From assembly GCA_020445745.1 (NCBI GenBank), contig JAGRGB010000198.1:1-34214 (forward strand): 34,214 bases of DNA, in the 5' to 3' direction. The notes beneath the pieces were generated by a model, which worked only from the letters and a program-made list of their open reading frames with translations, had not been told where the DNA came from and did not search any database. This document shows, one piece after another, positions 11,349-32,469 of this stretch. The position numbers were made by a program, and so were the translations under genes. This DNA comes from Rhodocyclaceae bacterium (GTDB lineage Bacteria; Pseudomonadota; Gammaproteobacteria; Burkholderiales; Rhodocyclaceae). How positions within the stretch are numbered: position 1 is the stretch's first letter; each line of letters starts with the position of its first letter.

Positions 11349-11394
11349 CGTCCGCTTCCCGGACGCATCTCGCCGGTACAGTCCGATTTTCAGA
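11349..11394 (+). promoter_or_regulatory. Proposed activator-binding sites (UAS) of cobW
   Basis: CGTCCGCTTCCCGGACG (11349-11365) is a fully symmetric match to the TCCG-N5-CGGA motif found upstream of apcA. A second copy with one mismatch, TCCGATTTTCAGA, lies at 11382-11394. The two are 31 bp apart, about three helical turns, and about 162 and 131 bp before the predicted sigma-54 start. Confidence 0.65.
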
Positions 11395-11492
11395 CGCCCG
11401 ATTTCGCCGTCACCATCGAACGCGCATGCGGTCGAACCGCAAACATGCTGTGATTCCGGGCCTGGCCCGGAACAGAACCGGCATCGGAGTGC

Positions 11493-11507
11493 TGGCGCAC
11501 AAATTGC
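11493..11507 (+). promoter_or_regulatory. Sigma-54 (-24/-12) promoter of cobW
   Basis: TGGCGCACAAATTGC matches the RpoN consensus TGGCAC-N5-TTGC with one mismatch and exact GG-N10-GC spacing. Transcription would start near 11519, leaving a 25-nt leader before the ATG at 11544. Confidence 0.72.
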
Positions 11508-11543
11508 AGGTCACCCGCGTCACCGCCAGCATGCGAAGCAAAC

Positions 11544-12875
11544 ATGACGAAGAGTCACGAATCCAGCCCGGTAACATCGAATGTTCAGCGATCCAGGTCC
11601 CGCACGATGGCTGGGTCGGCCGATTCCGGATTCGGAAAATCAGTCACGCGAATTCCGGTCACGCTTCTCACCGGGTTTCTTGGAGCGGGCAAGACAACCC
11701 TGCTGAACGGTCTGCTCGGCCAGCCCGAATTGAGGGGCGCAGCCGTTCTGATCAACGAGCTGGGCGACGTCGGCATCGACCACCACCTCGTCGAGATGGT
11801 CGATGAATCCTTGATGCTGCTCGATTCCGGCTGCCTGTGCTGTGCCATGCACGGTGACCTGGTAAAGACACTCAGGAGCCTGTCCGACAAGAGTTCCCGC
11901 CGGGAGATCCCGCCGGTCACCCGCATTCTGATCGAAACGACGGGACTCGCCGATCCGGTTCCGATCGTCTACACGATCATCGAACACGCATTCGTTTCGG
12001 CACGCTACGTTCTCGACGGAGTAATCACCGTCGTCGATGCAACCCATGGCGAAGATCAGATCGGCCAGCACCAGGAGGCACTTCGTCAAGTGAGCATGGC
12101 CGACCGCCTGCTGATCACCAAGTGCGATCTGGCCGACCGCCAAAGGCGCGCATCGCTTTCGCGACGCTTGTCGATCCTGAATCCGGCAGCCCGGCAGATC
12201 GAGACATTCGGCGGCCGGATTCCGGGAAACGAAGTGATCGGAATCGGCTTCTATGCGCCTTCCGAGAAATCGCCAGACGTCGCGACCTGGCTCGGCGAAC
12301 TGGCCGCCGAGGCGTCGACCGGGTCATCGCGTGCTCCTCGCAGCCCGTGGATCCAGCGCACTACCGGGGAACGTCCCGCCCCGGATCGGTCCCGCCACGA
12401 CGGGCGGGTCGCCAGCTTCGTGGTGGGTTTCGATCAGCCGGTGGACTGGCAAGGCTTCACCGCGGCAATGGGCCGGATCCTCGGCGACTACGGTCCCCAA
12501 CTGCTGCGCGTCAAGGGCCTGATCGCGGTCGCCGGTTCCGAACGGACGCCGATGGTCGTCCATGGCGTCCAAGGCGTTGCCTACCCACCGCTGCGCTTGA
12601 CCGACTGGCCGTCAGCCAGTCCGTTCGCCGATCGGCGTGGCCGACTGGTGTTCATCGGCTACGACTTGACCGCCGACGATCAAGCAGCGATTCGCGGGAC
12701 CCTTGCAGACATTCCGAACGCGAACGCCGCGGCGCGCATCATTGCCGCCAATCCCCTGCTCCCGACCCGTTGCTGGCTCTCCCAGCGTCAGGCTCCGGCA
12801 GCAAGGTCCCTGATCGAGCTCGACGGCTGGGTCGTTCAGGCAAAACGATTCTCGAGGACGAGGACCGTCCCATGA
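11544..12875 (+). CDS. CobW/COG0523-family G3E GTPase, probable metallochaperone
   Basis: 443 residues and the only clear plus-strand gene. The G domain begins near residue 35. Walker A is GFLGAGKTT (44-52), with INELGDVGIDHHLV (70-83) following. The metal-binding CxCC motif is GCLCC (C97, C99, C100). ETTGLADP (131-138) is the switch/Walker B region and TKCDL (192-196) a variant base-recognition motif. The CobW C-terminal domain is at about 287-440 (VASFVVGFDQPVDWQGF). Family members bind Zn2+, Co2+ or other metals at CxCC and deliver them to client enzymes using GTP. Residues 1-34 are serine/arginine-rich and unlike the family; a later start at Met22 is possible because the ribosome site of 11544 is weak. 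The sigma-54 promoter and activator sites match those of the apc operon, so a client in the carboxylase is inferred. Confidence 0.9.
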   Translation: MTKSHESSPVTSNVQRSRSRTMAGSADSGFGKSVTRIPVTLLTGFLGAGKTTLLNGLLGQPELRGAAVLINELGDVGIDHHLVEMVDESLMLLDSGCLCCAMHGDLVKTLRSLSDKSSRREIPPVTRILIETTGLADPVPIVYTIIEHAFVSARYVLDGVITVVDATHGEDQIGQHQEALRQVSMADRLLITKCDLADRQRRASLSRRLSILNPAARQIETFGGRIPGNEVIGIGFYAPSEKSPDVATWLGELAAEASTGSSRAPRSPWIQRTTGERPAPDRSRHDGRVASFVVGFDQPVDWQGFTAAMGRILGDYGPQLLRVKGLIAVAGSERTPMVVHGVQGVAYPPLRLTDWPSASPFADRRGRLVFIGYDLTADDQAAIRGTLADIPNANAAARIIAANPLLPTRCWLSQRQAPAARSLIELDGWVVQAKRFSRTRTVP

Positions 12876-13122
12876 TGGCGAAGACCATGCGTAGGTGCTG
12901 ACGGCTCCTGCCCACGGTCACGGCGCCAAGTCGCGCAGCGCGCCGAACATGCCGGCCGACACGGGCCGCGCACCGGTTTCGCGATTCTCGAGCCCCGATC
13001 GAACGACAAACTCGATCACGGACAATCGCGGGCCTGCTGCGGTCCATCTCGCTGGTCGTCGCGGGTGATTCCGACCGCACCAGCGGATCGGCCCGCCGAT
13101 TCACGCCTGCTGGCCCGATCGC

Positions 13123-13431
13123 TCACCGCCCGCGTCTACCGGCGCGGCTGGCCGACCTACATCCTTCGCCGTCAGCCTGGCACCAACCCGCGGCCAACAT
13201 CTCGCCCATGTTCGGCAGCCGGGTCGGGTCGCGCGCGAAGAGATGGATGACGTCGGGCTCGTCCGCGTCCCAGAGTACGCGCTCGATGCAAACCAGTTCG
13301 GTCGTGCCTGGCAACCGAAGCAGGCTGCCCGGACCCAAGACTGCAGGGGGGTCGATGTCCACGAAGACCTCCTCTGCCTCGAAGCAACCAGTCTCGGTGG
13401 GCTTGGCCAGATACCATACTCTCGTCTTCAC
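13123..13431 (-). CDS. Uncharacterised 102-residue protein downstream of apcE
   Basis: Starts at a GTG with GGAG seven bases upstream and reads MKTRVWYLAKPTETGCFEAE. An acidic, hydrophobic-patterned body follows (VFVDIDPPAVLGPG, TTELVCIERVLWDADEPD) with a basic tail. The composition differs from the arginine-rich noise of other frames, so it is probably real. It has no signal peptide, membrane helix or motif I recognise. It lies 49 bp beyond the apc operon terminator, and so depends on read-through or its own promoter. A small accessory protein for the carboxylase is only a guess from position. Confidence 0.6.
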   Translation of the reverse strand: MKTRVWYLAKPTETGCFEAEEVFVDIDPPAVLGPGSLLRLPGTTELVCIERVLWDADEPDVIHLFARDPTRLPNMGEMLAAGWCQADGEGCRSASRAGRRGR

Positions 13432-13479
13432 ATGGCCACTCCGCCATACAGCGAACCGAAGATGATGAACTCGCCCGCG

Positions 13480-13517
13480 AAAAAAAGAGGGCCGGCGCAT
13501 GCCGCCACACGCCGACC
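13480..13517 (-). terminator. Intrinsic terminator of the apcABCDE operon
   Basis: On the minus strand 13517-13506 pairs with 13501-13490 around the tetraloop GCGG. The 12-bp stem includes some G-T pairs. CTC and seven T follow (13486-13480). It lies 16 bp past the apcE stop codon, marking the end of the operon. Confidence 0.85.
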
Positions 13518-13532
13518 GCCAAGGGAGGCCAG

Positions 13533-14420
13533 TTACGGACACCTCGAGGAGAGTGATCTGAGTTGGGCCAGGCAATCCAACACGTGCTCCGGCTTCTGCT
13601 CCGCGGGAACCTCGGCAAAGTAGAATTGCCGCGGCTCCAGCGGCGGCGGTGCCTCGGCCGCCCAGAGCCGCCTGCCGACATCGACTCCGATCGCGCATCC
13701 TGCATCGTTGACCAGTGCCGGATCGCCGATCAGGACGTCCAGGTCCGATCCATCCGGGATCGAAAGCAGCGCCGCTTTGCCGAGGCGAAGTCCCAGGGTC
13801 CAGCGATAGTGACGGGCCACGTTGATCAGCGGACGATACCGTTCGACGTCCACCGGCCCAAGCTCGCCGTCGTCGATTCGCTCCTCGAGCAGCAATCCAC
13901 CCACCGGCAGGTGGGACACCGATCGAAGTACGTCGGCGACATACATCGCCGCATCCTCGATGGAGTCCGGGTCGAGCTCGATCGCATCGCGGCCGGCCAT
14001 CCGGTTCGCCTGCAGCAGCCATTGCCTCGGCGAGGGCACCGCCAGCACCAGTGGCGCCTGGCCGCGCAGATGCGCGATGACCGCCTCGATGACCTCGGCC
14101 AGCAGCGCCCGCGGCGCGGTGCTCTCGAGCAGCCGGCGAAGCGGCCAGGCCAGCCGCCGCTTGGCCGCCATCTCCGTCGCCAGAGCGGGCTCGCGTCGGA
14201 CCAGGGACTGGTACAGATCTCCGACCTCGATCACCGCCACGTCCGGCCGCAGCAGGCCGTGTGCCTGCGAGAACCAGGCTAGGTACTGCGCTGCCCCCTG
14301 CCAGGGGTCGCCGCCCTCCCCGAGCAGCAGTCGGCGCGTGTATGCGGCCGATTTCAACCACACGCGGAGGTTTCCTCCACCCGGCGCACCGGGCAGCAGA
14401 TCGGCGAATCCCGGGTTCAT
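13533..14420 (-). CDS. apcE: Acetophenone carboxylase-type epsilon subunit (ApcE)
   Basis: 295 residues (about 33 kDa), matching the fifth, smallest-but-one subunit of Aromatoleum acetophenone carboxylase. In that system it completes the core complex ApcABCD, and carboxylation needs it. The sequence starts MNPGFADLLPGAPGGGNLRV and has no signal peptide. Segments such as LVLAVPSPRQWLLQANRM and DVLIGDPALVNDAGCAIGVD look like strand-loop units of an alpha/beta barrel; that fold guess is mine. Its ATG overlaps the apcD stop codon (ATGA), so it is translationally coupled to apcD. The operon terminator follows directly. Identification rests on operon position, size and coupling more than on any recognised motif. 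Confidence 0.8.
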   Translation of the reverse strand: MNPGFADLLPGAPGGGNLRVWLKSAAYTRRLLLGEGGDPWQGAAQYLAWFSQAHGLLRPDVAVIEVGDLYQSLVRREPALATEMAAKRRLAWPLRRLLESTAPRALLAEVIEAVIAHLRGQAPLVLAVPSPRQWLLQANRMAGRDAIELDPDSIEDAAMYVADVLRSVSHLPVGGLLLEERIDDGELGPVDVERYRPLINVARHYRWTLGLRLGKAALLSIPDGSDLDVLIGDPALVNDAGCAIGVDVGRRLWAAEAPPPLEPRQFYFAEVPAEQKPEHVLDCLAQLRSLSSRCP

Positions 14421-16693
14421 TTCTTCTCATCCTCCAGCGCACCCAGCGCAGCCAGGCGGGCCTCCAGTTCCTCGATGCGCACGTCCTTGGGATGGCGCAT
14501 GTAGTTGGGGCGCGGCTGATCGGCGTGGTGGGACTGGTCCGCGCTGCCCATGTACAACTTGCCCACGTCGTCGCCCCAGCAACCGAAGTACTGCAGGTGT
14601 GCGGGCGGGGTCGGCTTGTTCCATTGCTTGATGAACTCGGAGAAGGGCACGCCGCGCGCCTTGCGCGCCTTGCGCTCGGCTTCGCGGGCGGCCGCCGTTG
14701 CCTCCTGGTTGATGGCCAGGGTCTGCGGGTCGAACTGGACCTTGTAGAGCCGTTCGGCGACCGCCGGCGAAATCAGCCCTTCCTCGATGTCGCGCACTAC
14801 GCCGGCCGGATCGCGCTCCAGCAGGTCACCGTAGCCGGCGCCTGCCCCCTGGGAAATCATGAATAGCTCACCGCGCTTCGAAATCTCGAAGCCCATGCCC
14901 ATGTGATAGGTGGTGTAGCTGGCGCCCTCGAATGGCTGATCGTTCATGATCTCTTCGATCGAATGCCTGAACTTCGCCGGCTCGTTCAATAGAATGTCAT
15001 AGACATCGACGCCCTTGACCTTGGACAGGGGATAGGCGCCGCAGGCATAGCCGCCGAAAAGACCCTGCAACGGGGGAATCTTTGCGCCCTGGCAGGTGGT
15101 CATGAAGCCCCACTGCTCGCTGTCCTTGGTGGCGACGATCATCGTGTAGCCCTGGCCGCCGCGGTACTTGCCCGGGGCGATCGCGTCGCGCGTCATCTTC
15201 TTCGACACGAGTTGCAGGAAGGGCACGTCTTCCTCGTTGAGTTCCTGCTCGCCGATGTCGGCCATGGTCGCGAAGATCGGCGCCAGCGCGTGTTCGCCGT
15301 CGCGGTCGACGGTGGCGCCGGCCCCCATGCCATTGAGGTCGGCGCAGAGGTTGCCCAGCGTCTCGCCGTGCTGGCTGACGCCTCCCCAGATGAAGGTGTT
15401 GATCATGTTGAAGGTCGGCGCGTGCACCTTGGTGTATTTCTCGGGGCAGCTGTAGAGGAACTTCGCGACCGCGTGCTGACCGGCTGTAAAGCCGGTGAAG
15501 ATCGACATCAGGCTCTGGGAGTTGGGCGCCGCATAAGAGCAGTTCACGATCGAGTGCGGGTCGGTGATTACCTCGATCGGCGCAAACGCAGCCTGGCCAC
15601 GTGGCAGATCGGGCCACACGTAGCACAGGAAGACCTGCGCGAGCATGCCCTTGAGGCCGGCGACGATGGTGTTGGTCGGGCGGTTGGTGAATTCCGGAGC
15701 CGAGCCCCGGAAGTCGAAGATCAGCCGGTCGCCGGTCTTGGTGAGCTTGCAGTTCACTTTGACCACACAGTTCTCGCGCAAGGTCGAGTCCTGGATGATG
15801 TAGGTGCGCACCGTCATGTCGGGCCACTCGCTGATGCGGCGCTTGACCTCGGCGCGAACGTTCTCCATCGTCAGGCGCAGCGTCGATACCAGCGCCTCCG
15901 GGCCATCGCTGTTCAGCGTCTCCTCGATACGCTGCTTGATGCGCAGGCAGGCGAAGAGCTTGACCTTCATGTCCTCGTACTGGAGCTTGGGCTCGCGCAC
16001 CGAGTTCTGCAGGAAGGTCAGGATGTCGCGCTTGATCTCGTAGTTCTCGACGACCTTGAAGGGACTCATCTTGAGGCCCTCGTCGCACGGGCTCTCTGCC
16101 ATCGACGGCATGCCGCCAGGCTCGATCGCGCCGTTTTCGCCCTCATGCACGGTGGACGCCACCCAGCACACCAGCTTTCCGTCGTGGAAGATCGGCAGGA
16201 TCATGCTCTGGTCGGTGTTGTGCACGTTGCCGTAGCGCGAGTCGTTGTGGATGAAGCCGTCGCCTTCGCGCACGCCCACGGTCGGATCCTTCATCCAGTT
16301 CTTGATGATGAACTTGATCGGGTGGTGCACCAGCGCGGAGAAGATCAGCACCCCGCCGGCACTGGCGATCGCCAAGTCGCCCGAGGCGGAATAGACGCCG
16401 GTGATCACGTCGCCCCACTTGGCACCCGGCGCCGCGCCCATCTGCTCGACCATCTCGTAGCCTTCGTCGCAGCCGGACTGCAGGCGATCGCGGATCTTGG
16501 CGATGGTGTGGGCATCGCTGACCTTGTTGATCGACTCCTCTTCCAACGCGGTGCGCGGCATCAGGTCGTGGTTCTGCATGATCTCGGGATCGGGCCCGAG
16601 GAAGAGCGTGTTGTCGCTGAGGAACTTCTTGATCAGCTTCATTTCCTCGGCGCTTGGCTTGCGCGCCGGTACTTGGGTTGCAGTCTGTTTCAT
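14417..16693 (-). CDS. apcD: Acetophenone carboxylase-type subunit, HyuB/oxoprolinase-B family (ApcD)
   Basis: 758 residues (about 84 kDa), of the hydantoinase B/5-oxoprolinase family. Family features are GDVITGVYSASGDLAIASAG (about 92-111), DGFIHNDSRYGNVHNTDQSM (about 146-165), FDFRGSAPEFTNRPTNT (about 329-345) and GKYRGGQGYTMIV. In characterised acetophenone carboxylase the HyuB-like subunit holds the carboxylation site. There the phosphoenol of the ketone meets the activated bicarbonate. The enzyme consumes two ATP per acetophenone carboxylated to benzoylacetate. The start at 16693 has AGGA six bases upstream. It lies 45 bp after apcC and overlaps apcE by 4 bp. Acetone carboxylase is less likely because the operon has five genes rather than three; the true ketone substrate cannot be read from sequence. 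Confidence 0.9.
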   Translation of the reverse strand: MKQTATQVPARKPSAEEMKLIKKFLSDNTLFLGPDPEIMQNHDLMPRTALEEESINKVSDAHTIAKIRDRLQSGCDEGYEMVEQMGAAPGAKWGDVITGVYSASGDLAIASAGGVLIFSALVHHPIKFIIKNWMKDPTVGVREGDGFIHNDSRYGNVHNTDQSMILPIFHDGKLVCWVASTVHEGENGAIEPGGMPSMAESPCDEGLKMSPFKVVENYEIKRDILTFLQNSVREPKLQYEDMKVKLFACLRIKQRIEETLNSDGPEALVSTLRLTMENVRAEVKRRISEWPDMTVRTYIIQDSTLRENCVVKVNCKLTKTGDRLIFDFRGSAPEFTNRPTNTIVAGLKGMLAQVFLCYVWPDLPRGQAAFAPIEVITDPHSIVNCSYAAPNSQSLMSIFTGFTAGQHAVAKFLYSCPEKYTKVHAPTFNMINTFIWGGVSQHGETLGNLCADLNGMGAGATVDRDGEHALAPIFATMADIGEQELNEEDVPFLQLVSKKMTRDAIAPGKYRGGQGYTMIVATKDSEQWGFMTTCQGAKIPPLQGLFGGYACGAYPLSKVKGVDVYDILLNEPAKFRHSIEEIMNDQPFEGASYTTYHMGMGFEISKRGELFMISQGAGAGYGDLLERDPAGVVRDIEEGLISPAVAERLYKVQFDPQTLAINQEATAAAREAERKARKARGVPFSEFIKQWNKPTPPAHLQYFGCWGDDVGKLYMGSADQSHHADQPRPNYMRHPKDVRIEELEARLAALGALEDEKK

Positions 16694-16738: not shown

Positions 16739-18874
16739 TCAGGCCCGCAGGAACCAGGAAGCGCCCTGCTTGGCCGCCACGAAATTCCAGCCCGGATTCA
16801 CCAGGAACGTGGTCACTTCGGAGGCGATGACTGCCGGTCCTTCGATCTGGACCCCCGGCTCGATCGAGGCGCGGCTCCACACCGGGGTCTCGCACGGCCC
16901 CTCGTGGCCGACGAAGTAGCAGGTGCGGACGCTTTCCGGCTTCGGCGGCTTGCGGCGCTGTTCGACCGGCAACGGCTTGATGTCCTCGAATTTCACCGTT
17001 TCGTGGCGAACGAATGCCGCGACCCGGATGGTGTTGATGCGGATACCGGCTTCCGGCGCCTGGGACCCCTCGCCGAAGCGCTTGCCGTAGTCGGTCGCGA
17101 ACTGCTCGATGATCGCCAGCACGTCCGCCACGCCATGCATCTCGTGCTTCGGAATCACCGCCGTGGTCTGCACCAACTGGTTGCCGTAGCGCAGATCGAG
17201 CTCGAGGTCGTGGCAGATCTCCTCGCGCGGCACGCCCTGCCGGATCAGGTCCTGGGTCCCCAGTTCCTTCAGGTCGGCGACGATGTGATTGAAACGATCG
17301 TAGTCGTCGAACAGCTTCAGGCTGTTCGAGTCGTACAGGACCATGTACAACGAGGTTTCGTGAATGTGCAGCTGGTGCATGTTGCCGGCACCGACTGCCG
17401 AGAACACCGACGACAACGGCGGGGCCATGATCCTGTCGATGTTCAGGTTCTGGGCGATGCCGCAGCAGTGCAGCGGGCCGTTGCCGCCGTAGGCCAGCAT
17501 CGTGAAATCCTTCGGATCGTAGCCACGAGCACGCAGCTCGGTGAACAGACCGTTGGCCATGTTGTCGTCCACCTTCTCGCGGATCAGCAGGGCGGCATCG
17601 ATCACTTCACAGTCGAGATCGTCACACAGCGCGTCTTCGATGGCGGACTTGGCACGACGCGGATTGAGCGGGATGGAGCCGCCAGCGTAGTTCTTCGGAT
17701 CCAGATAACCCAGCAGCAGGTCGGCGTCGGTGACGGTCGGCCTCATGCCACCCCGGTCATAGCAGGCCGGACCGGGGTCGGAACCGGCAGACTCGGGACC
17801 GCACTTGACGGTGTTGTACATGCGGTCGTAGCTGGCGACAGAACCACCGCCGGCGCCCAGCGTGACCAAGTGGACCATCGGCACCGACACCAGCCAGCGA
17901 TCGATCACCGGATTGAAGTCGTAGTGCTTGATGCCGCCCTCCACGACAATGCCAATGTCGTAGCTGGTGCCGCCCATGTCGGTGGCGACCACGTTGCCCA
18001 GATCGCACTGGGTGGCCAGGTGCTCGGAGGCGCCGATGCCGGAAACCGGACCGGAGTGGATGGTCTGCAGCGCGTCGGTGGAGTTCAGCTGGGCCATGCC
18101 CCCGGAGTTGTGGATCACCAGCATCGGCTTTTCATAGCGGTGCGCGCGCAGGTTCTGCTCCAGCGCCGACAGGGCGTGGTACATGGTGTTGTGCAGGTAG
18201 CCGTCGACGATCGCCGAGGTCGCGCGCACGTACTCGCCCTTGCGGCCCGCCACCTGGTGCGACAGGATGATCGGAATCGCGCCCAGCAGGTGCGACGGAT
18301 ACTCTTCGAGCAGGATCTCCTCGGTACGCTGCTCGTGGGCCGGATTCACCACCGCGTTCACCAGCGCCACGACGATGATCTCGGCGCCACGGTCCACCAG
18401 CTCGCGGATCTGCACGCGCAGGTCGTCCTCGTCCAGGGCCATCACCAGATTGCCCTGGAAGTCGACGCGCTCGCGCACGCCGCGGATCATGTGCGGCAGT
18501 ACCAGCGGGTCGGGACGCTGGGCATTGGGCATGTCCTGCTGTCCCAGGTTGTCCAGGCCCTCGCCGTAGCCGCGGGCACGCGACAGCGGCACCGTGGCTT
18601 CGTAGCCGGCCGTCACCAGCATGCCGATCTTGGGGCCCTTGTGCTCGATCAGGGCGTTGGTGCCCAGGGTCGTCGCGTAGCGCACCGAATCGACCTGAGA
18701 AAGGATTTCCTCGAGCTCGAGTTCCAGTACGTGGTAGGCCTTGCTCAGTGCCTCGTTGAAGCCCAACGCCAGATTATGGTGGGTGGTCAGGGCCTTGGCT
18801 TCGATGTACTTGCCATCCCAGACCACGAAACAATCGGTGAAGGTGCCACCGATATCAACAGATACGCGCCTCAT
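16739..18874 (-). CDS. apcC: Acetophenone carboxylase-type subunit, HyuA family (ApcC)
   Basis: 711 residues (about 78 kDa), of the hydantoinase A/oxoprolinase ATP-binding family. The phosphate-1 motif VDIGGTFTDC is at 6-15, RYATTLGTNALIEHKGPKIG follows near 65-84, and the second nucleotide motif DMGGTSYDIG is near 298-307. It ends with IEGPAVIASEVTTFLVNPGW, the usual C-terminal region. In the studied enzyme two HyuA-like subunits (ApcA and ApcC) each phosphorylate one reactant, the enol of the ketone and bicarbonate. Which does which cannot be decided here. Start 18874 has GAGGAG seven bases upstream. Both nucleotide motifs are canonical, unlike the altered first motif of ApcA. Confidence 0.92.
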   Translation of the reverse strand: MRRVSVDIGGTFTDCFVVWDGKYIEAKALTTHHNLALGFNEALSKAYHVLELELEEILSQVDSVRYATTLGTNALIEHKGPKIGMLVTAGYEATVPLSRARGYGEGLDNLGQQDMPNAQRPDPLVLPHMIRGVRERVDFQGNLVMALDEDDLRVQIRELVDRGAEIIVVALVNAVVNPAHEQRTEEILLEEYPSHLLGAIPIILSHQVAGRKGEYVRATSAIVDGYLHNTMYHALSALEQNLRAHRYEKPMLVIHNSGGMAQLNSTDALQTIHSGPVSGIGASEHLATQCDLGNVVATDMGGTSYDIGIVVEGGIKHYDFNPVIDRWLVSVPMVHLVTLGAGGGSVASYDRMYNTVKCGPESAGSDPGPACYDRGGMRPTVTDADLLLGYLDPKNYAGGSIPLNPRRAKSAIEDALCDDLDCEVIDAALLIREKVDDNMANGLFTELRARGYDPKDFTMLAYGGNGPLHCCGIAQNLNIDRIMAPPLSSVFSAVGAGNMHQLHIHETSLYMVLYDSNSLKLFDDYDRFNHIVADLKELGTQDLIRQGVPREEICHDLELDLRYGNQLVQTTAVIPKHEMHGVADVLAIIEQFATDYGKRFGEGSQAPEAGIRINTIRVAAFVRHETVKFEDIKPLPVEQRRKPPKPESVRTCYFVGHEGPCETPVWSRASIEPGVQIEGPAVIASEVTTFLVNPGWNFVAAKQGASWFLRA

Positions 18875-24263: not shown

Positions 24264-25577
24264 TCAGTCCAGAAACCAATAGCCGTCCGGGTCGATCCAT
24301 GCCCTCACCGGCAGCCGTTGGCCATCCCCGCCCTGATGCGGCATGCCCGGCCAGCGATTTCCGCACACCAGACTTCCGGCCGCGTTTCCAGTGGCGATGT
24401 TCAGGCAGATATCGACGCCAGGCAGCGGGCCGACCAGGGCACACGGCTTTACCGGAAGTCCCGGAAAGGCGGCCAGCAGCAAGCCGCCCCAGGCCGGCCC
24501 GCCAAAACAATTGACCAACGGAAAGCGGCAATGACCGATCTGCTCGAACAGCCAGTTCCAGGCCATGGCGTCGATGCGTCCATCGAATATCGCCACCAGC
24601 CGCAGCGAGCTCGAGTCGAAGGCCTCCATCGGCGCGCTGCAGCCATCGCGCTCGGACTTGAGCGTCGCGCCGCAGATTCCCAGATGCGTGACGACGGACA
24701 GGACATGCGGCGCCAGGGCGTCATTCGACGCGAGGCGATCCGCGATCACCAACCCTGCTCCCAGTTGCAGGCAACCAAGGACGAGCCAGGGCCACTGCGG
24801 TGAGTTCGGCTCGGCGCACACCATCAACAAGTCGCCCCCATGCAGGTCGAGCGCCGCCACGAGATCCCACGCCGCCTTGAGCGTGATCCCGGCGATTGCC
24901 TGAGCTGCCAAGCCGGGAAGTTCGAGCCGTGGAGGCTGGCAGCTCGGCGGGGGACCCGGTGCTCCGGCCCCCTGCCCGAGCGAGGCGAAGTCGATCACCC
25001 TGGCACCCGGAACGCCGGCCAAGGCCTCGTGGAACACGACGAACCAGCGGCAATCGGCCGCGTGATGCCGTCGCGCGCTGTCGCGAATCGCGCCCAGCCA
25101 CACGACTTCCACGCCCAGGCGGAGAAGCGCCAGCATCGTGGTGACGGCTTCCAGCCCGATCGGCAACGCAACGCCCACGCGATCGCCGGCTCGGACGCCA
25201 CGCAGGAGAAATGCCGCGGCCACGGTCGAGGCGTCCTCGGCAAGCTCGGCAAAGCTGCGTTCGGACCATTCACCGGCGAGGCTCGGTGCGCATAGAGCCA
25301 GACGCTGCGGGGCGCGGACGGCGTGTCGCCCGAGGAGGCTGTCGGCCGCATCGAATCGGGTCGGTTCGAGCCAGCCCAAGGGGCTCCCCGTCCGCGGCCT
25401 GCCACCTTCATGGTCGAGGCCGACCTCCTCGGCCACCGCGTGCCAGAAGTCCCCCGAGTTCCGCAGTGACCAGCGCTGAAGCTCCTCGAGGAAACCAAAG
25501 CCGTTGTGCGCGACGAATCGGCCCAGACGCGTCTCTTCCCACCGCACCTCTGTCGGTAGATACATCCGCATTCCCAT
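24264..25577 (-). CDS. Degenerate acyl-CoA synthetase homologue (probable pseudoenzyme)
   Basis: 437 residues against about 650 for acetoacetyl-CoA or benzoylacetate-CoA ligases. The N-terminus (RLGRFVAHNGFGF, LQRWSLRNSGDFWHAVAEEV) and the fold around RAGDRVGVALPIGLEAVTTM match that family. The ATP-binding loop (normally TSGTTGKPK) is absent: the sequence passes from LAAQAI straight to AGITLKAAWDL. The GGTE-type motif reads NCFGGPAWGG, and the RTGD motif is lost. The protein stops at DPDGYWFLD, before the GR hinge and the C-terminal domain with the catalytic lysine. The frame is otherwise open, so it may be kept for a non-catalytic role. The start at 25577 was chosen from family alignment; ATGs at 25571 and 25565 are alternatives. 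It is the last gene of the transport operon. Confidence 0.82.
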   Translation of the reverse strand: MGMRMYLPTEVRWEETRLGRFVAHNGFGFLEELQRWSLRNSGDFWHAVAEEVGLDHEGGRPRTGSPLGWLEPTRFDAADSLLGRHAVRAPQRLALCAPSLAGEWSERSFAELAEDASTVAAAFLLRGVRAGDRVGVALPIGLEAVTTMLALLRLGVEVVWLGAIRDSARRHHAADCRWFVVFHEALAGVPGARVIDFASLGQGAGAPGPPPSCQPPRLELPGLAAQAIAGITLKAAWDLVAALDLHGGDLLMVCAEPNSPQWPWLVLGCLQLGAGLVIADRLASNDALAPHVLSVVTHLGICGATLKSERDGCSAPMEAFDSSSLRLVAIFDGRIDAMAWNWLFEQIGHCRFPLVNCFGGPAWGGLLLAAFPGLPVKPCALVGPLPGVDICLNIATGNAAGSLVCGNRWPGMPHQGGDGQRLPVRAWIDPDGYWFLD

Positions 25578-25683
25578 TCCCCCGAGACACGGATCGCTTT
25601 CCTCCGCGCGTGGACATTGCATCGCCGCCAGATGCCGAAGCCGAAGCTCCGGCACCTGGCGCTCGAACGCCAGCGACTGCCGC

Positions 25684-26994
25684 CTACCGGCCGCCGGTCG
25701 CCACCTGCTCGAGCTTGCTGAGTGAAACGTCTCTTTCCTCTACGCCCTCGGGGTTCGACTTCATGTTCGCCGACCAGGTGGTCGAGTGATTGCGCTTGAC
25801 GTCGATCACGTGGCCGACCACCGGCATGACCGCCTTGTATCCGTCCTCGCCGATGTCCGGGCGATTCTGAAAGATCATGAATTTCCAGAACTCGCCCTTC
25901 TGGTCGTACATCTCGCCAAGATAGGGACGCGGGAAGTCCACCTCCATGTACACCACCTTCTTGCTGTACGGGTGCTCGGCCGGCGGCGTCCCCTCGACCA
26001 CATAGACCTCGCGCGGCTCCCACTCGATGTGCTTTGCCGGGAAGTAGTACGGCGCCTCGGTCAGGCCGACCGACGGGAACTCCGCCGGCGTGTCGCGCTT
26101 GCTGTTGTCCACGCTCAGCTCGGGACTGTGCGCGATCGCGAACACCCAGCGCTTGGCGACCAGCTTGTTGGCCCGATATTTGGTCGGGAAGGCATCCCAG
26201 ATATCCCAGTCGTCATAGAGCTGGTCGGTGCCGCCGATCGGATCCATCCAGGCGCCGCCGGACAGGCGCCGCGTGCGGCGCACCGATTTCAGGTAGGCCC
26301 AGGTATCGTCCGGCTTCGACGACGACGCATCGTTGTAGCGGATCGAGAAGGTGCCCAGGCCACGGATGTCCTGCGGGCTGGTCGCGAACAGATAGGTCTT
26401 CTGCGCGATCGTGCCGTCGCCCTCGCTGATCGGGCCGCCATCGAGCCGACCCTCCATGTAATAGCGTCGCGACTGCCAGCGCTGCACCCGTTCGACACCG
26501 CTCGATCCGCTGATGAACACGAACGAGATGTCGCGCAGATCCATCGTCGCGCCATAGGTGGCGGCCCGCAGGTTCCAGATCACCTTGTCGCCGGCGTTCG
26601 GGTCATCCATCTTGATCGCCTCGGGCGGGAACAGCATGCCGGCTTTCCAGCCGCTGACCGTTCTCGCCGCCGGATCGAACTGGACGTCCTTCGACCACTC
26701 CTTGGTCGCCTGGACGTACTTGGGATCCATCTCGATCTTCTTGGAGTGGGCGATCTTCATCGTCAGCCCGAACTCCTTGATCATCTGCTCGAGCTTCTCG
26801 GGAACCATGCTGGCGACGGTCTTGCCCTCGAAGGTCTCGTTCTTGACCTTGTCGTAGTTGTCCTTGTCGATCACGAAGCCGGCCTCGAGTTCGGCGGCGA
26901 ATGCGGCGGAGGTGCCGGCCAGCAGCAGCGCGCCGATCAGCGCCAGCGGCTTCGCGACGGGTCGTTGGGAATTGCGGAAATGAGTTTGCGACAT
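25684..26994 (-). CDS. DUF1329 periplasmic/outer-membrane-associated protein
   Basis: 436 residues beginning with a basic n-region, a hydrophobic core (LALIGALLLAGTSAAFA) and an Ala-rich cleavage site, so it is exported. The mature part fits DUF1329, whose members are beta-rich LolB/outer-membrane-lipoprotein-like proteins nearly always encoded beside DUF1302 genes. Recognisable segments are GWKAGMLFPPEAIKMDDPNA and YIPK-like loops such as GGTDQLYDDWDIWDAFPTKY. AGGAG lies eight bases before the ATG. It follows the DUF1302 gene by 13 bp, so the two are cotranscribed. The family is thought to act in envelope transport of hydrophobic compounds; direct biochemical evidence is lacking. Confidence 0.88.
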   Translation of the reverse strand: MSQTHFRNSQRPVAKPLALIGALLLAGTSAAFAAELEAGFVIDKDNYDKVKNETFEGKTVASMVPEKLEQMIKEFGLTMKIAHSKKIEMDPKYVQATKEWSKDVQFDPAARTVSGWKAGMLFPPEAIKMDDPNAGDKVIWNLRAATYGATMDLRDISFVFISGSSGVERVQRWQSRRYYMEGRLDGGPISEGDGTIAQKTYLFATSPQDIRGLGTFSIRYNDASSSKPDDTWAYLKSVRRTRRLSGGAWMDPIGGTDQLYDDWDIWDAFPTKYRANKLVAKRWVFAIAHSPELSVDNSKRDTPAEFPSVGLTEAPYYFPAKHIEWEPREVYVVEGTPPAEHPYSKKVVYMEVDFPRPYLGEMYDQKGEFWKFMIFQNRPDIGEDGYKAVMPVVGHVIDVKRNHSTTWSANMKSNPEGVEERDVSLSKLEQVATGGR

Positions 26995-27007: not shown

Positions 27008-28540
27008 TTAGAACAGACGCGTCAGACGGAAGGTCAGCTGGTTGTTGTTGGCGAAGTAGCCGAACAGCTGGGTGGACGGATTCGGGTCGAACAGAGTCTT
27101 GGACTTGCCATGGGCCCAGAACAGGTCCGCTTCGACCTTGGCCCGCCAGCTGTCCCCGAGCACGAACTCGACGGCTGGAATTGCAAATCCCCCGCCATGG
27201 TTGAGGTCGAAGCCGACCGCGAAGCTCGGGTTGATGGTGTCGCCCTTGTAGTTGAGCACCGAAAAGGCGGTCAGGATGGTGTTGTGCTTGGTCAGCGGCG
27301 CGCCGTATGCGAACAGGCGCACCAGGTCGTCGGATTCCCGGTAGTCGCGGATCCAAGTATCGAAGATCTGCACCGAGGAAAAGGACGGCCGGTTGGTGCC
27401 GAGCAGGCTCTGGAAATTCAGGTTCTTGTCGGCCCGCAGCATCACCGTCACGGTGTCCTTCCGCTTGATCCCTCCCAGACCGAGACCTGCTGCGGCGCCC
27501 CGCGTCGGCGCGGTCAACGGACCGGTGCCGACGTTGAATGGCTGGCCGTAGGTGTAGGCGAGCTCGGCGCTGAGTACCGTGTCAAGCTCCGCGAGATAGC
27601 CGCTGACCGTCGCGCCGAGGACGTCGATGGTCGGATTGATCAGGTCAAACAGCGGCCCCTGGGGTGTCTTCTTCCACGGGTTGAACACCGAGTTGGCGAC
27701 CGGATCGGCCGAGAACGTGCGGATGTAGGCAAGCGAGTAATTGACCGGACCGGCGGTACCGGACCAGCGCACGCCGCCGGTCACGTCGTCCTTGTCGGCT
27801 TCCGGATGATCGCAATCGTGGGTCGTCAAGGCGGTCAGGTCGAAGCCGCGGTAGGGCTGAAAAAACCAGCGACCGCCCTGGATATCGTAGGTATTGCCGA
27901 TGTCCTTGCAGCGATCGAGCCCGGGACGGATGAAGATGTCGAACTGGCCGTCGGCTTCCGGCACGTCGAACTTCATGGCCGCCAGCCACAGCGGCTTGCG
28001 CCACTCCTCGTTCTCGCCTTCGAAGAACAGCCGCCACGAGAGGTCGTAGCCGTGGACCACGTCCATCGCGTGGAAGAAGTCCGACTCGCCCCAGACGATC
28101 TGCTGTTTACCGAGTTTGAAGGTGGCCCTTTCGCCGAGCTTGAACTGGGCCCAGAACTCGCGCAGGTCCTTCTGGTTGTAGTTGTCGAGGATGCTCGAAT
28201 CGTCACCGCCGGTGGTGCCGGTGGCCTGCCGCAGATCCTCGAGCTGCTCCAGGTAGTCGGTCTTGTGCTCGCGATCGAGCCGCCCGACGGCTTTCCACTG
28301 CACCGGACCGGTATATGCGTCGGCATCGAGCAGCAGCGACGCGCGCAGCATCGACGCCTTCCATTTGTCGTCGTAACCGACGGTTTCCGGGATGTCCTGC
28401 AAATTGAAGGCCGCCCAGCCACGGACATAGCCGCCCAGGTGGAAGCTGGCCCAGTCGGAATCGTCGGCGCGGGCCGCGCCGCAGGCGGCCCAGGCCAGTG
28501 CGGTGGCGACGGCCAAGCTGCGAAGTTTTCTGTTGTTCAT
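27008..28540 (-). CDS. DUF1302 outer-membrane beta-barrel protein
   Basis: 510 residues with a clear signal peptide (MNNRKLRSLAVATALAWAACGAARA, cut before DDSDW). The body is made of amphipathic strands and the last residues, LTFRLTRLF, end in phenylalanine, the outer-membrane assembly signal. FKLGKQQIVWGESDFFHAMD and YDLSWRLFFEGENEEWRKPL are typical of DUF1302 proteins. It partners the DUF1329 protein encoded 13 bp later and the RND transporter encoded 94 bp before. A channel or receptor for a hydrophobic substrate or product is the usual interpretation. The ATG at 28540 has GAGGGA seven bases upstream. Confidence 0.9.
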   Translation of the reverse strand: MNNRKLRSLAVATALAWAACGAARADDSDWASFHLGGYVRGWAAFNLQDIPETVGYDDKWKASMLRASLLLDADAYTGPVQWKAVGRLDREHKTDYLEQLEDLRQATGTTGGDDSSILDNYNQKDLREFWAQFKLGERATFKLGKQQIVWGESDFFHAMDVVHGYDLSWRLFFEGENEEWRKPLWLAAMKFDVPEADGQFDIFIRPGLDRCKDIGNTYDIQGGRWFFQPYRGFDLTALTTHDCDHPEADKDDVTGGVRWSGTAGPVNYSLAYIRTFSADPVANSVFNPWKKTPQGPLFDLINPTIDVLGATVSGYLAELDTVLSAELAYTYGQPFNVGTGPLTAPTRGAAAGLGLGGIKRKDTVTVMLRADKNLNFQSLLGTNRPSFSSVQIFDTWIRDYRESDDLVRLFAYGAPLTKHNTILTAFSVLNYKGDTINPSFAVGFDLNHGGGFAIPAVEFVLGDSWRAKVEADLFWAHGKSKTLFDPNPSTQLFGYFANNNQLTFRLTRLF

Positions 28541-28634
28541 AGAGTTCCCTCGTTATCTGCGTAAGGTGTGGGCACGACTTCCCCCCGACGCGGCCGGCGT
28601 CCGGCGCGCGTACGTCAGGCTGCGTCGGCAAGGG

Positions 28635-31025
28635 TCAAGCGGTTGGAACGGGAACCGGCTCGGCGTCCGGCGCGAGTTCGATCGGGTGGCGTTTCGAGCC
28701 GACGATGAACTCCGGCTGGAACAGGTACACCAGCGCGGGCATCAGGAAGAGCGCCGAAGCGGCCGAAATGGACAGCCAGATCGCGATCAGCACACCCATG
28801 TCCGCCTGCAGCCGCAAGGACGAGAAACTCCACAGCACGACACTGGTGATCAGCGTCAGGGCGGTGATCAGCACACCCTTGCCAGCGCTCGCGATCGACT
28901 TGGCAATCGCCCGGCCGACGTCGCGGTGATGGTGCAGTTCTTCGCGGATGCCATCGACGATGTAGAAGGTGTAATCGACTCCGAGCCCGATACCCAGCGC
29001 GACCACCGGCAGCGTGTTGATGTTCATGCCGATGCCCTTCCAGGCCATGTAGCTGAAGGTCAGCGTGTTCGACAGCATCACCGGGATCATGAAGAACACC
29101 CCGGCGACCATCGATCGGTATGTGACCGTGCAGCACACCACCAGCACCAGCAGCGCGAAGGCGATGGCCTCGATCTGGCCGCTGAGGATGACCTCGTTCA
29201 CCGCCGCCAGCACGCCGATCAGGCCGCCGGCGAGCATGAAGTCGGCCTTCTCCATCGGATTCTGGGCGACGTAGTCCTTGACCCGTGCGATCGCGGTGCG
29301 GATGGTCTCGCCCTGATGGTCGCGGAAGAACAGTGTGACCGAACCGTTCTGGGCCTGCGGATCGGCGAAGCGATCCATGTCGCCGGGGTCGGTACCGGAG
29401 ACGAACATGTAGGCCAGCTCGCCGTTCTCGTTGGCGGTGTTGCCGATCTCCTGGTAGCGCGCATTGCCCTCGCGCAGCACCCGCTTGACCGCCGGCAGGA
29501 CGTCGGCCAGCGACAGGCTGCCGCCGACCTCGGGCTGGGCCTCCATGTATTTCTGGAAGCGCTCCATGCTCTCGAGCACTGCCGGCTCCTTGAGGTCGCC
29601 TTCGTTCCTGCCGCCGACAACGACGAACATCCGGTCCGAGCCCTGGAACTTGTTGTTGATCGCCGTGGCGTCCTGGTTGTAGGCGGAGTCCGGCCACAGG
29701 ATCGGCGAGCCCGGATTGGCGTCGCCGACCTTCAGGTTGAACGCATACAAGGCGGATATCGCGAAAACGGCAACGGCCCCGATCACCACGCCATAGCGCG
29801 CGCGCGAGGTGACGACTGCCGAGCAGAGGTTGAGGATCCAGCGCAGCGCCGGCAGGATGTCGATCGGGTGGGCGTAGCGCTTTTCGAGGCGGCAGTAGGA
29901 CAGCAGCACCGGGGTCAACACCAGCGCGCTGATCATGATCGACAGGATCCAGGCGGTGCCGATGTAGGAGATCTTCTCCAGCATCGGGATCGGCGTCAGC
30001 GCCACCACCAGCACGCAGCCGGCATCGGCGACCACCGCCAGCATCCCCGGCTTGAACAGATTGAGCAGGCTCACCCGTGCCGCCGCCTTGGTGCTCGGCG
30101 CCCCGTTGGCCACCTCGTCTTCGAAGCGCGAGACCAGTTGGACCGAGTTCGACACCGCCTGGGCGGTGATCAGGAAGGCCACCACGATGACCAGCGGATC
30201 GAGATGGAAGCCCATCAGCTTGGCCGCCCCGAGCGCCCAGATCGCGCTCACCGCGCCGGTGGTGAGGGGCAGCAGTGTGCCGTGCCAGGTGCGGGTGATC
30301 AGCAGCAGGAGCAGCACCAGGGCCGAGACCGTTACCGCGAAGATCTGGATCGTCTCGGTCAGGTAGAAGTTCACCAGCCCGTAGAGGATCGGCTCCCCGA
30401 CCACCCGCACCAGCACGCCGTCGCCCCGGGCGTTGTCGACGATCTCCTTGATCTGCCGGTAGGCCTTGAAGTAATCGACCTCGCTGTCGGTGAAGTCCGC
30501 GGTGATCAGGGTCGCCTTCATGTCGATCGACACGTAGGGCCCATACACCAGCGGATTGTTCAGCACCGACTCCCGCAGCACCGCGATCTCGGCGTCATCC
30601 GTGGGCAGGTTCGGCCACATCAGCGGGCGTGACTCGATACCCTCGGTCGAAGCCCGCACCTCCTTCACCTTTTTCGATGCCAGCGAAATGATCTGGTAGG
30701 TGTCGACCCCCTCGACCTTCTGCAGGCTCTGGGTGATCTGCTGCACCTTGCGCAGCACGGTCATGTCGAATACGTCACCCTTCTCGACCTCGAGCATGAT
30801 GCTGACCATGTTCGAGCCACCGAAGGTTTGCTTGAAGCGGTTATTCACTTCGACGTACGGATGGTTCTTCGGCAACAGGTCACTGAACACCGTCTTGACC
30901 GCGATATGGCCGGCGAGATAGGCCATCACGGCGGTGATCCCTGCAATGACCACCAGCACGATCACGCGGTACTTCAGTATCAGGTCGATAAAGTGTTCGA
31001 GTGCCTTGAACGTCTTGTTCTTCAT
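28635..31025 (-). CDS. RND-superfamily (MMPL-type) transporter
   Basis: 796 residues, inner membrane. One N-terminal helix (VIVLVVIAGITAVMAYLAG) precedes a periplasmic loop containing FSDLLPKNHPYVEVNNRF. Five helices, a second single helix (VIGAVAVFAISALYAF) with a second large loop, and five more helices follow, the 1+5+1+5 pattern of RND proteins. ALGIGLGVDYTFYIVDGI is the conserved GxxxDY helix that carries proton-relay acids, and the equivalent of its first half lacks the Asp (DPLVIVVAFLITAQAVSNSV). It is shorter than tripartite drug pumps and belongs with the MMPL/hopanoid- and sterol-type exporters found beside DUF1302/DUF1329 genes. GAGGAA lies seven bases before the ATG. Confidence 0.9.
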   Translation of the reverse strand: MKNKTFKALEHFIDLILKYRVIVLVVIAGITAVMAYLAGHIAVKTVFSDLLPKNHPYVEVNNRFKQTFGGSNMVSIMLEVEKGDVFDMTVLRKVQQITQSLQKVEGVDTYQIISLASKKVKEVRASTEGIESRPLMWPNLPTDDAEIAVLRESVLNNPLVYGPYVSIDMKATLITADFTDSEVDYFKAYRQIKEIVDNARGDGVLVRVVGEPILYGLVNFYLTETIQIFAVTVSALVLLLLLITRTWHGTLLPLTTGAVSAIWALGAAKLMGFHLDPLVIVVAFLITAQAVSNSVQLVSRFEDEVANGAPSTKAAARVSLLNLFKPGMLAVVADAGCVLVVALTPIPMLEKISYIGTAWILSIMISALVLTPVLLSYCRLEKRYAHPIDILPALRWILNLCSAVVTSRARYGVVIGAVAVFAISALYAFNLKVGDANPGSPILWPDSAYNQDATAINNKFQGSDRMFVVVGGRNEGDLKEPAVLESMERFQKYMEAQPEVGGSLSLADVLPAVKRVLREGNARYQEIGNTANENGELAYMFVSGTDPGDMDRFADPQAQNGSVTLFFRDHQGETIRTAIARVKDYVAQNPMEKADFMLAGGLIGVLAAVNEVILSGQIEAIAFALLVLVVCCTVTYRSMVAGVFFMIPVMLSNTLTFSYMAWKGIGMNINTLPVVALGIGLGVDYTFYIVDGIREELHHHRDVGRAIAKSIASAGKGVLITALTLITSVVLWSFSSLRLQADMGVLIAIWLSISAASALFLMPALVYLFQPEFIVGSKRHPIELAPDAEPVPVPTA

Positions 31026-31058
31026 CGTCGGTTCCTCGTAGCGATGACGGCGGCGCGC

Positions 31059-32078
31059 CTAGTCGCGGCCATAGATGTGGAGTTGATCGCCTTCGAGCTG
31101 CGCCAGGTTGGAGCCCGCGAGGTAGTAGCGTTCGCCCACGGCAATGATCTGGGTTCGCCAGGAGAGGTCCTTGTCCGAGATCCTGCCGCCCTGCCAGCGG
31201 GTACCGTCCTCGCTGCCGATCAGGCGCACGCCCTTGTCCCCGACCGCGATCCAGCGCTTGCCGTCCCACAGCACGCTGTTGAGGTGTTCCCGGGTGACGC
31301 GGGGCTGCTCGAGCCAGTTGTCTCCACCGTCGTGGGTAACCAGCACCGCGCCCGACAGGCCGACCGCCACACCGTTCTCGGGATCGCGGAAGCGGACCGA
31401 CATCAGGCTCGACTTCAGCGGTCCGGACTTCGGCGACCAGCTTTCCCCGCCGTCGCGCGTGCGCAGCATCGCGCCGAACTCACCGACCATCCAGCCGTCC
31501 GCGCCGAGCAGGAATATGTCATTCCATGCCTGGTCCTTCTCCTCCAGAACGCGACGCCAATGCGCGCCGTAATCCTGCGTCCGCAATACCGCGCCGACTT
31601 CGCCCACCGCCCAGGCGATTCCGTTCGGCAGGGTTCGCACCTGGAGCAGCTTGTTGGCGATCTCGGAGCGCGGCACATCGACCGAACGCCAGTTCCGTCC
31701 GCCGTCCGAAGTCACCAGCACATCACCCGCGTTGCCGACCACCACCGCCCGGTCCGCGTCCCACGCCGAGATCGCCTGCAGGTGCACCGCGGCCGGCGTC
31801 GACTGGATCGTCCAGTGCTCTCCGCCGTCGTCGCTGCGCACGATCTTTCCGTAGGAACCGACTGCCCACACGACGCTCGCGCCGGGCGCGGCCACGCCAT
31901 AGAAGACATCGCGCCGTTCGATGGCCGGCGCTTGCAGCTGGCTGATCTCGGGCTCCCACTTGATGAAGAACGCGGCGTACAGGAGACAGCCGATGATCAG
32001 CAGCGGCAGCGACGAGGCCACCACCCCGGAGGCGGCACGGAGCGCCCCTCCCAGCGAAAGTGTCGAGTCAGCGGCCAT
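31059..32078 (-). CDS. YCF48/HCF136-like membrane-anchored beta-propeller
   Basis: 339 residues. One N-terminal helix (SSLPLLIIGCLLYAAFF, about 21-38) anchors a periplasmic propeller with Asp-box repeats SDDGGEHW, SDGGRNW, QDYGAHW, RDGGESW, HDGGDNW and EDGTRW. Such proteins are widely encoded with DUF1302, DUF1329 and RND genes and may hold the envelope complex together; their biochemistry is unknown. The ATG at 32078 has GGAAG seven bases upstream; a TTG at 32105 would add nine residues and is not preferred. It is the first gene of the transport operon, behind a sigma-54 promoter and a 234-nt leader. Confidence 0.87.
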   Translation of the reverse strand: MAADSTLSLGGALRAASGVVASSLPLLIIGCLLYAAFFIKWEPEISQLQAPAIERRDVFYGVAAPGASVVWAVGSYGKIVRSDDGGEHWTIQSTPAAVHLQAISAWDADRAVVVGNAGDVLVTSDGGRNWRSVDVPRSEIANKLLQVRTLPNGIAWAVGEVGAVLRTQDYGAHWRRVLEEKDQAWNDIFLLGADGWMVGEFGAMLRTRDGGESWSPKSGPLKSSLMSVRFRDPENGVAVGLSGAVLVTHDGGDNWLEQPRVTREHLNSVLWDGKRWIAVGDKGVRLIGSEDGTRWQGGRISDKDLSWRTQIIAVGERYYLAGSNLAQLEGDQLHIYGRD

Positions 32079-32323
32079 GGCAGGCTTCCGCGACACGGCG
32101 GGCAAGCGGGCAGCAATGTGCCGGCGGCCGCCGCAATTGAATTTGTATGTCTCCGGTCATTTCCCCTTCCTTCTCTTGGCGCCGCGGCACCTGTGGCACA
32201 GAGCACCCCGCTTCGAGTGGATGCAAGGCCGCATGCCGCGTGCATCGACCCACCCTGGCAGGACTGGGCGCGGCCCGTGTATCTGGCGGCCAGCCTCCCG
32301 ACGGGGGCGCTGGACTGTGAGTC

Positions 32324-32338
32324 GCAACTTCGATGCCA
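32324..32338 (-). promoter_or_regulatory. Sigma-54 (-24/-12) promoter of the transport operon
   Basis: On the minus strand TGGCATCGAAGTTGC (32338-32324) has the same TGGCAT-N5-TTGC layout as the apcA promoter. Start would be near 32312. An A/T tract (about 32363-32380), striking in this GC-rich DNA, lies between it and the activator site, as expected where DNA must bend. Confidence 0.72.
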
Positions 32339-32454
32339 GTGCCAGATACAACCGCAAGCACTTGTTTTTTTGTGTTTTTCAGGAGGAATCCGATTGCGGC
32401 GTCGCAACATCACGGTTTGCTCCGTCCGGATATGCTCCTTGTCGTAGGCCAGCT

Positions 32455-32469
32455 ATCGGACTACCGGAC
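32455..32469 (-). promoter_or_regulatory. Weaker activator-binding site upstream of the transport operon
   Basis: ATCGGACTACCGGAC contains TCGG-N5-CGGA, one mismatch from the TCCG-N5-CGGA motif, about 150 bp upstream of the predicted sigma-54 start. Only one copy is seen, plus a lone GTCCGGATA half-site near 32424, so this is the least certain of the four. Confidence 0.42.

Follow-up and report, generated by a model that had tools for sequence, protein, structure and literature searches.

A probable sigma-54 regulon around an Apc-like ketone carboxylase, marked by a shared operator in a Rhodocyclaceae contig

Among the arrangements we compared, the closest published counterpart to the locus described here is AcxR-acxABC of Cupriavidus and Xanthobacter, in which a GAFTGA activator adjoins the ketone carboxylase operon and the sigma-54 promoter reads TGGCATG-N4-TTGC (PMC2864759). 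Our locus is a 34,214-nucleotide contig of a Rhodocyclaceae bacterium (assembly GCA_020445745.1, contig JAGRGB010000198.1), which carries an activator gene of this type, an operon for a carboxylase resembling acetophenone carboxylase (Apc), a transport operon and a cobW-type gene. The stretch analysed, hereafter the window, is the entire contig (C150) and makes up ~0.7% of the 4.88-Mb genome. It differs from AcxR-acxABC in that the carboxylase is Apc-like and that a transporter and a metallochaperone belong to the proposed regulon; the passages of PMC2864759 available to us name no operator.

Other described systems match parts of the locus. The apcABCDE-bal operon of Aromatoleum aromaticum is likewise inducible and has five carboxylase genes, A to E, but in the available passages of that work acetophenone induction is assigned to a predicted two-component system, adiRS (PMC4729919). 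In addition, no ligase gene follows the fifth gene in our locus; instead, the last gene of the transport operon is a short AMP-binding-like open reading frame (ORF). Our transport operon resembles AmeABCD of Castellaniella defragrans, an efflux system for apolar monoterpenes in which an HAE3 RND pump works with a COG4447-type protein, a protein of the outer membrane and another of the periplasm; the source mentions both DUF1302 and DUF1329 (PMC6394551). Here, by contrast, the putative transport set is tied to a ketone carboxylase under sigma-54. Evidence of the same kind as ours has been used for sigma-54 regulons of Clostridiales, whose operators lie mostly 100-250 bp upstream of promoters near activator genes; the motif spelled out in the passages available is TGT-N10-12-ACA, and the others, AcoR's included, are in a figure and the supplement (PMC6615313). 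For BmoR, also a sigma-54 activator, an operator 193 bp upstream of the promoter is given in the accessible part of PMC8899819, and two Helicobacter papers mention acetone carboxylase and sigma54 (PMC2244623, PMC9927306). In the open literature, which leaves most subscription journals outside and so gives weak evidence, we found no match for the spelled-out operator motif, for acetophenone carboxylase together with 'sigma-54', or for COG0523 together with acetone carboxylase; the only match for acetone carboxylase with enhancer binding protein concerns, in the passage available, NifA in nodules. The kind of system is well known; the locus adds to it a useful operator definition and an interesting difference in operator between two related activators.

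We propose that the contig very probably holds one small sigma-54 regulon, in which four promoters would be under the activator encoded at 21812-23851 by way of common operators. On the minus strand the transport operon (32105-24264) is followed by the activator gene (23851-21812) and the carboxylase operon (21283-13123), with cobW (11544-12875) on the plus strand beyond the latter. A previous reading of the window from its letters alone (the sequence-only reading) had proposed one switch for carboxylation, transport and a metallochaperone. This proposal appears largely right. The carboxylase and autoregulatory arms of the switch look strongest; the cobW arm looks good, although not in every relative, the transport arm looks weaker, and 'transport' may in fact be efflux.

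All four promoters lie where the sequence-only reading placed them, and each is an exact TGGC-N7-TTGC core facing its gene (Table 1). The window holds seven such cores in total, and an rpoN gene is present in the genome. Exact TCCG-N5-CGGA cores occur four times (11351, 21534, 21552 and 24222) and serve three of the four promoters, again as that reading had it, the transport site being one mismatch off. It was also right that each promoter has one or two sites upstream, but not about their distance, which it put at 120-210 bp. The gaps between the 13-mer and the -24 element range from 88 to 176 bp: 98 and 129 bp for cobW, 88 and 106 bp for the first carboxylase gene (apcA below), 154 and 176 bp for the activator gene and 117 bp for the transport operon. 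The sites suggest a refined operator consensus of CGTCCG-RWWWY-CGGACG, with the operator form CGTCCGRWWWYCGGACG. Where the window has the degenerate site 24242, the relative G104 has an exact site 177 bp from the activator-gene promoter.

How much of this could arise by chance is a fair question, since pairs of this kind are to be expected in a G+C-rich genome and the motif was picked after sight. The genome contains 139 exact TCCG-N5-CGGA palindromes and 350 promoter cores (155 and 195 on the two strands, against 78 and 65 in a reversed-letter control), and by our own arithmetic chance should produce ~2 operator-promoter pairs per genome at 60-260 bp. Raw pairs in the correct geometry number 3 in the genome and 2 in the control, which agrees with the earlier remark that single matches are expected by chance; among the 297 genomes of the family, 220 contain the raw pattern. 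All 3 pairs, however, lie in this one 34-kb contig, and pairs in the opposite order, with the site on the other side of the promoter, number 0. When the pattern is sharpened, STCCG-N5-CGGAC has 22 matches on one strand and 21 on the other, with 4 of these places in the window, and the refined operator-promoter pattern marks the same 3 places genome-wide against 0 in the control. Three random pairs would all fall inside this part of the genome with a probability of ~3e-7 by our arithmetic, a figure on which we do not rely because the motif was chosen after the window had been seen; by the same token the within-genome count is post hoc, which weighs against our proposal. Beyond these three places the refined form found no further regulon members genome-wide, and a relaxed promoter form was uninformative (15 matches against 17 in the control).

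The comparison with other genomes is what largely refutes chance. We built a position weight matrix (PWM) from 28 distinct sites in genera other than the window's, picked by the TCCG-N5-CGGA core plus a promoter at 60-200 bp. Six window sites take ranks 1 to 6 of 34,198 window positions in this matrix, and the seventh site in the ranges of the sequence-only reading, 24242, takes rank 11 (Table 1). Exact pairs at 40-300 bp number 44 in 47 sequences (773,353 bases, window included, one contig twice), and in 31 of them the promoter-side half continues as CGGACG. The contig present twice is apparently L009 and G225, which are equal in length and both entered the pair count and the matrix work; L009 was dropped from the test that follows.

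This test left out one genome at a time and compared, for each recognised promoter, the best site at 60-200 bp upstream with random stretches of the same locus; several of the genomes are close to one another. Sites at p<=0.05 were found at 13 of 13 recognised apcA promoters (14 genes; none recognised in L010), at 10 of 10 transport promoters (10 genes), at 8 of 8 recognised cobW promoters (14 genes) and at 21 of 23 recognised promoters of activator homologues (34 genes), where G206 and G004 failed. A threshold of p<=0.01 leaves 9, 5, 6 and 21, respectively. Alignment agrees with these counts: in six apcA regions the blocks that are conserved comprise both copies of the operator, one A-rich stretch and the -24/-12 element, and eight transport regions have in common a block like GTCCGATAGCYGG and one that reads CGGAC in seven of them. 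Taken with the refined pattern, this conservation of orthologous sites upholds the earlier claim that the joint placement of operators and promoters is not chance, and we give the chance explanation next to no credence.

The same data bear on whether the repeats might be structural, that is, terminators or RNA hairpins and not protein sites. They are palindromes in intergenic DNA, and those of the activator gene follow closely on the stop codon of the gene before it. Yet their arms are 4-6 bp with no T-run after them, they keep within a fixed range of distances from the sigma-54 promoters downstream, and the identity of their bases is conserved. We consider a structural origin highly improbable and read the repeats as operators.

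Several observations weigh against a regulon of four promoters in every relative. The matrix was trained on sites selected by the sequence-only reading's own core. Eleven of the 34 activator homologues in the leave-one-out set are without a recognised promoter, as are 6 of the 14 cobW genes, among them that of the nearest relative, G104 (activator 89% identical), whose cobW is preceded by AGGC-N7-TTGC and a site scoring 8.0 only. An exact core occurs at one of the ten transport promoters (G213). In the genus g6, T(C/T)CG-N5-CG(G/A)A is missing within 480 bp upstream of the activator genes (nine short loci and G206), and the refined pair of G206, G182 and G242 is found ~1.5 kb away from the activator gene, not at its promoter. 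In the Methyloversatilis loci (L008, L009, G225) the apcA sites are weaker, and neither cobW nor the activator gene has a recognised promoter; the Celeribacter locus (L010) has no recognised promoter at apcA, cobW or the activator gene; the operator code is therefore not universal.

Some of these observations would fit a narrower regulon of carboxylase operon and activator gene only, with the transport and/or cobW sigma-54 promoters answering mainly to something else. The mostly inexact transport sites, the extra conserved inverted repeat between them and their promoter, and the degenerate or unrecognised cobW promoters all point that way. On the other hand, the transport and cobW sites of the window are within the top six matrix ranks, in 8 of 10 orthologues the best transport site is 115-119 bp away from its promoter, and every cobW gene with a recognised promoter has a site in the test above. 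Moreover, 14 of the 15 fetched loci with apcA also contain cobW (13 of 14 after removal of the duplicate). We regard the narrower regulon as unlikely and favour the regulon of four promoters.

The remaining question is which protein binds. The window activator has the AAA+ domain of sigma-54 interaction (PF00158, 7.4e-64) with GAFTGA in its translation, an N-terminal GAF domain (PF01590) and a Fis-type C-terminal helix-turn-helix (HTH; PF02954, HTH_8), and is thus the AcoR-type activator that the sequence-only reading named. The name AcxR, given to the regulator of acxABC, was rejected: the adjacent operon is Apc-like and has five genes. We surveyed the 297 family genomes for homologues of the activator at E<=1e-100, scoring at most three candidates per genome. 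The raw pattern being a poor classifier of genomes, the extended half-site was used, and TCCG-N5-CGGACG-N60-190-TGGC-N7-TTGC was found in 42 of the 297. These comprise 27 of the 62 genomes with an activator homologue, counted genome-wide whatever the distance between pair and activator gene, and 15 of the 235 without one (Fisher p 2e-11, which overstates the evidence given the kinship and differing sizes of the genomes). The reversed control gave 8 of 62 and 17 of 235 (p 0.12). Against the association stands that the discovery genome is itself among these 62 related genomes.

It could be argued that the operators are real but are bound by another member of the activator family, or by several in common. 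The homologue search in the discovery genome gave two matches at E<=1e-100, with three candidates scored, so the genome encodes at least one further close homologue, 56% identical to the window activator (G000 contig C119:23535-25820; L138, L263, L264), whose helix shares the IAKSTLY core. The same type of motif stands upstream of activators at 42-55% identity, and 7 of 10 homologues at 42-44% identity also have TCCG-N5-CGGA there; the motif alone therefore does not name one regulator, a further point that weighs against our assignment. The second activator's own gene, however, is preceded by two GTTCG-N5-CGAAC repeats (C119:25773, 25806), as is also seen in the same-genus relatives G104 and G170, and the protein differs from the window activator around the recognition helix (LAIAKSTLYQKLRDYG against LGIAKSTLYLKLKRFD). 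This different operator favours the window activator as binder; the gene of the latter lies between the units and has the window's best site. We consider binding by another family member improbable and infer that the window activator binds the operators.

The contrast between the two activators extends to their homologues. We surveyed helices against half-sites within 480 bp upstream, counting orthologues several times; the helix search pattern leaves out LDIAKSTLYQKVK and similar helices, and those activators were read from aligned rows instead. Nine activators have the helix IAKSTLYQKL(R/K)DYG: six of them show T-type half-sites only (0 C, 4 T), two a mixture (2 C, 2 T), and the ninth lacks a site. 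Seventeen have the helix (I/V)AKST(L/V)Y(L/V/A)KLKR: ten with C-type half-sites only, two mainly C (3 to 1), one even (G286), two mainly T (G086, G106) and two with no site. The operator difference thus appears to track the helix in a graded manner, not perfectly, and a single base in each half-site may keep the two circuits separate. A broader model, in which we place even confidence for and against, is a ketone-responsive activator family with an operator code that distinguishes the Apc-like regulon (CGTCCG-N5-CGGACG) from the second activator (CGTTCG-N5-CGAACG) and follows changes around the shared IAKSTLY helix, with the first circuit including its carboxylase's own metallochaperone.

A concrete operator for the sigma-54 activator family near ketone carboxylases would make such regulons findable in genomes, and it could supply parts for ketone biosensors. 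Shared control would tie a COG0523 metallochaperone to the carboxylase and give a testable lead on the metal supply of these enzymes. The difference between the two operators is also a good case for the study of how duplicated activators are insulated.

The sequences show the promoters, the operators, their conservation and the association with the activator family; from these we infer binding, effector, looping, direction of transport and metal, as follows. The activator would bind CGTCCG-RWWWY-CGGACG repeats, single or paired 18-31 bp apart, at ~90-180 bp ahead of the -24 element. The GAF-containing sensor region would meet an effector, presumably the ketone or the alcohol from which it derives, and the AAA+ domain would then open the sigma-54 promoters through DNA looping. 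Assembly of dimers into an oligomer, followed by looping, is established behaviour of sigma-54 activators, and the paired operators would suit two dimers that assemble the oligomer and loop to the promoter. The putative targets are the Apc-like carboxylase operon, the activator gene, the AmeABCD-like RND transport/efflux operon and the cobW-type gene, whose product could load the carboxylase metal. The window's best operator is at the activator's own gene, which suggests positive feedback.

Table 1. Genes, promoters and candidate operators of the proposed regulon (window coordinates)
Feature	Position	Strand	Basis
cobW, COG0523-type GTPase/metallochaperone with GCLCC motif	11544-12875	+	Pfam PF02492, PF07683; motif in translation
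apcE-position gene, no family match	13123-14442	-	Pfam, NCBIfam, PDB searches
apcD-like, Hydantoinase_B-type carboxylase subunit	14417-16693	-	Profile and structure-relative matches
apcC-like, Hydantoinase_A-type subunit	16739-18874	-	Profile and structure-relative matches
apcB-like, acetone carboxylase gamma-type subunit	18944-19342	-	PF08882
apcA-like, Hydantoinase_A-type subunit, first carboxylase-operon gene	19346-21283	-	Profile matches
AcoR/AcxR-type sigma-54 activator (GAF, AAA+ with GAFTGA, Fis-type HTH)	21812-23851	-	Pfam, translation
Short AMP-binding-like protein, last transport-operon gene	24264-25655	-	Profile match
DUF1329 protein (AmeABCD-like component)	25684-26994	-	Profile match
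DUF1302 protein (AmeABCD-like component)	27008-28540	-	Profile match
MMPL/HAE3-like RND transporter (AmeD-like)	28635-31025	-	Profile match
YCF48/BNR-type protein (AmeC-like), first transport-operon gene	31059-32105	-	Profile match
Sigma-54 promoter of cobW, TGGCGCACAAATTGC	11493-11507	+	Exact TGGC-N7-TTGC
Sigma-54 promoter of carboxylase operon, TGGCATAGCGCTTGC	21431-21445	-	Exact core; TGGC and TTGC invariant in 6 aligned genomes
Sigma-54 promoter of activator gene, TGGCGTGCAAATTGC	24053-24067	-	Exact TGGC-N7-TTGC
Sigma-54 promoter of transport operon, TGGCATCGAAGTTGC	32324-32338	-	Exact core; kept in 8 aligned genomes
cobW operator 1, CGTCCGCTTCCCGGACG	11349-11365		Exact core (11351); PWM rank 2
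cobW operator 2, AGTCCGATTTTCAGACG	11380-11396		Core one mismatch off (11382); PWM rank 3
Carboxylase operator, proximal	21532-21548		Exact core (21534); PWM rank 4; conserved
Carboxylase operator, distal	21550-21566		Exact core (21552); PWM rank 5; conserved
Activator-gene operator, proximal, CGTCCGATTGTCGGACG	24220-24236		Exact core (24222); PWM rank 1
Activator-gene operator, distal, degenerate	24242-24258		Core one mismatch off (24244); PWM rank 11
Transport operator block 1, TATCGGACTACCGGACA	32454-32470		Core one mismatch off (32456); PWM rank 6
Transport operator block 2, half-site, CGTCCGGATATGC	32423-32435		Aligned block CGGAC in 7 of 8 genomes, TGGAC in G192

The sequence-only reading had called the first carboxylase gene apcA, a name that would imply acetophenone as the ketone. 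The subunit order, HyuA-type, small gamma-type, HyuA-type and HyuB-type, is that of acetophenone carboxylase, the subunits match the Apc models in A-D order, and the best solved relatives of the two subunits compared are acetophenone carboxylase subunits (5l9w). However, the scores of subunits A to D fall far short of the NCBIfam equivalog cut-offs (317.6 of 1250, 121.8 of 250, 559.4 of 1500 and 319 of 1500 bits), and we rejected the name acetophenone carboxylase on these cut-offs and on the distance from the 5l9w subunits. The carboxylase appears to be Apc-like, and its sequence does not support acetophenone as the ketone. The fifth gene had no Pfam, NCBIfam or PDB match at the thresholds used.

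The cobW product has the CobW domains and GCLCC, an instance of GCxCC, which we take to be the COG0523/CobW motif, and is thus a COG0523/CobW GTPase. The named subtypes CobW (123.7 of 332.1 bits) and ZigA (116.3 of 600 bits) were rejected, both scores falling short of the cut-offs. Acetophenone carboxylase contains tightly bound zinc (PMC4729919). Together with the motif in the cobW product, this makes it plausible that the protein delivers the carboxylase metal.

In the transport operon the MMPL, YCF48/BNR, DUF1302 and DUF1329 genes stand in a row, and we would assign the two DUF proteins to AmeA/AmeB. The RND pump scores 165.6 of the 351.9 bits demanded by the HAE3 model TIGR00921 and so misses its cut-off. 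Because the set of RND, DUF1302, DUF1329 and COG4447-like proteins resembles AmeABCD, the operon may export a hydrophobic compound and not import one. Between its operators and the -24 element, at 32394-32410, is an imperfect inverted repeat (TTGCTGCTACGCAGCAA-like) that is conserved in the eight aligned genomes; it lies outside the activator motif and is possibly the site of a second regulator. The AMP-binding-like protein (24264-25655) has 463 aa and only parts of an acyl-CoA synthetase, with a 76% match at the corresponding position in G104. Adjoining the transport promoter, near the contig end at 34214, is a PQQ-repeat ORF (33625-34191) with a 98% match at the corresponding place in G104.

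Two further genes lie on the other side of cobW. A 475-aa GAF protein (9491-10918) has as its sole NCBIfam match the N-terminal part of DhaR and no AAA+ or HTH match, so that it resembles the sensor half of an activator. At 7308-8900, a 530-aa TIR-domain protein matches the PADLOC SAVED-TIR model weakly.

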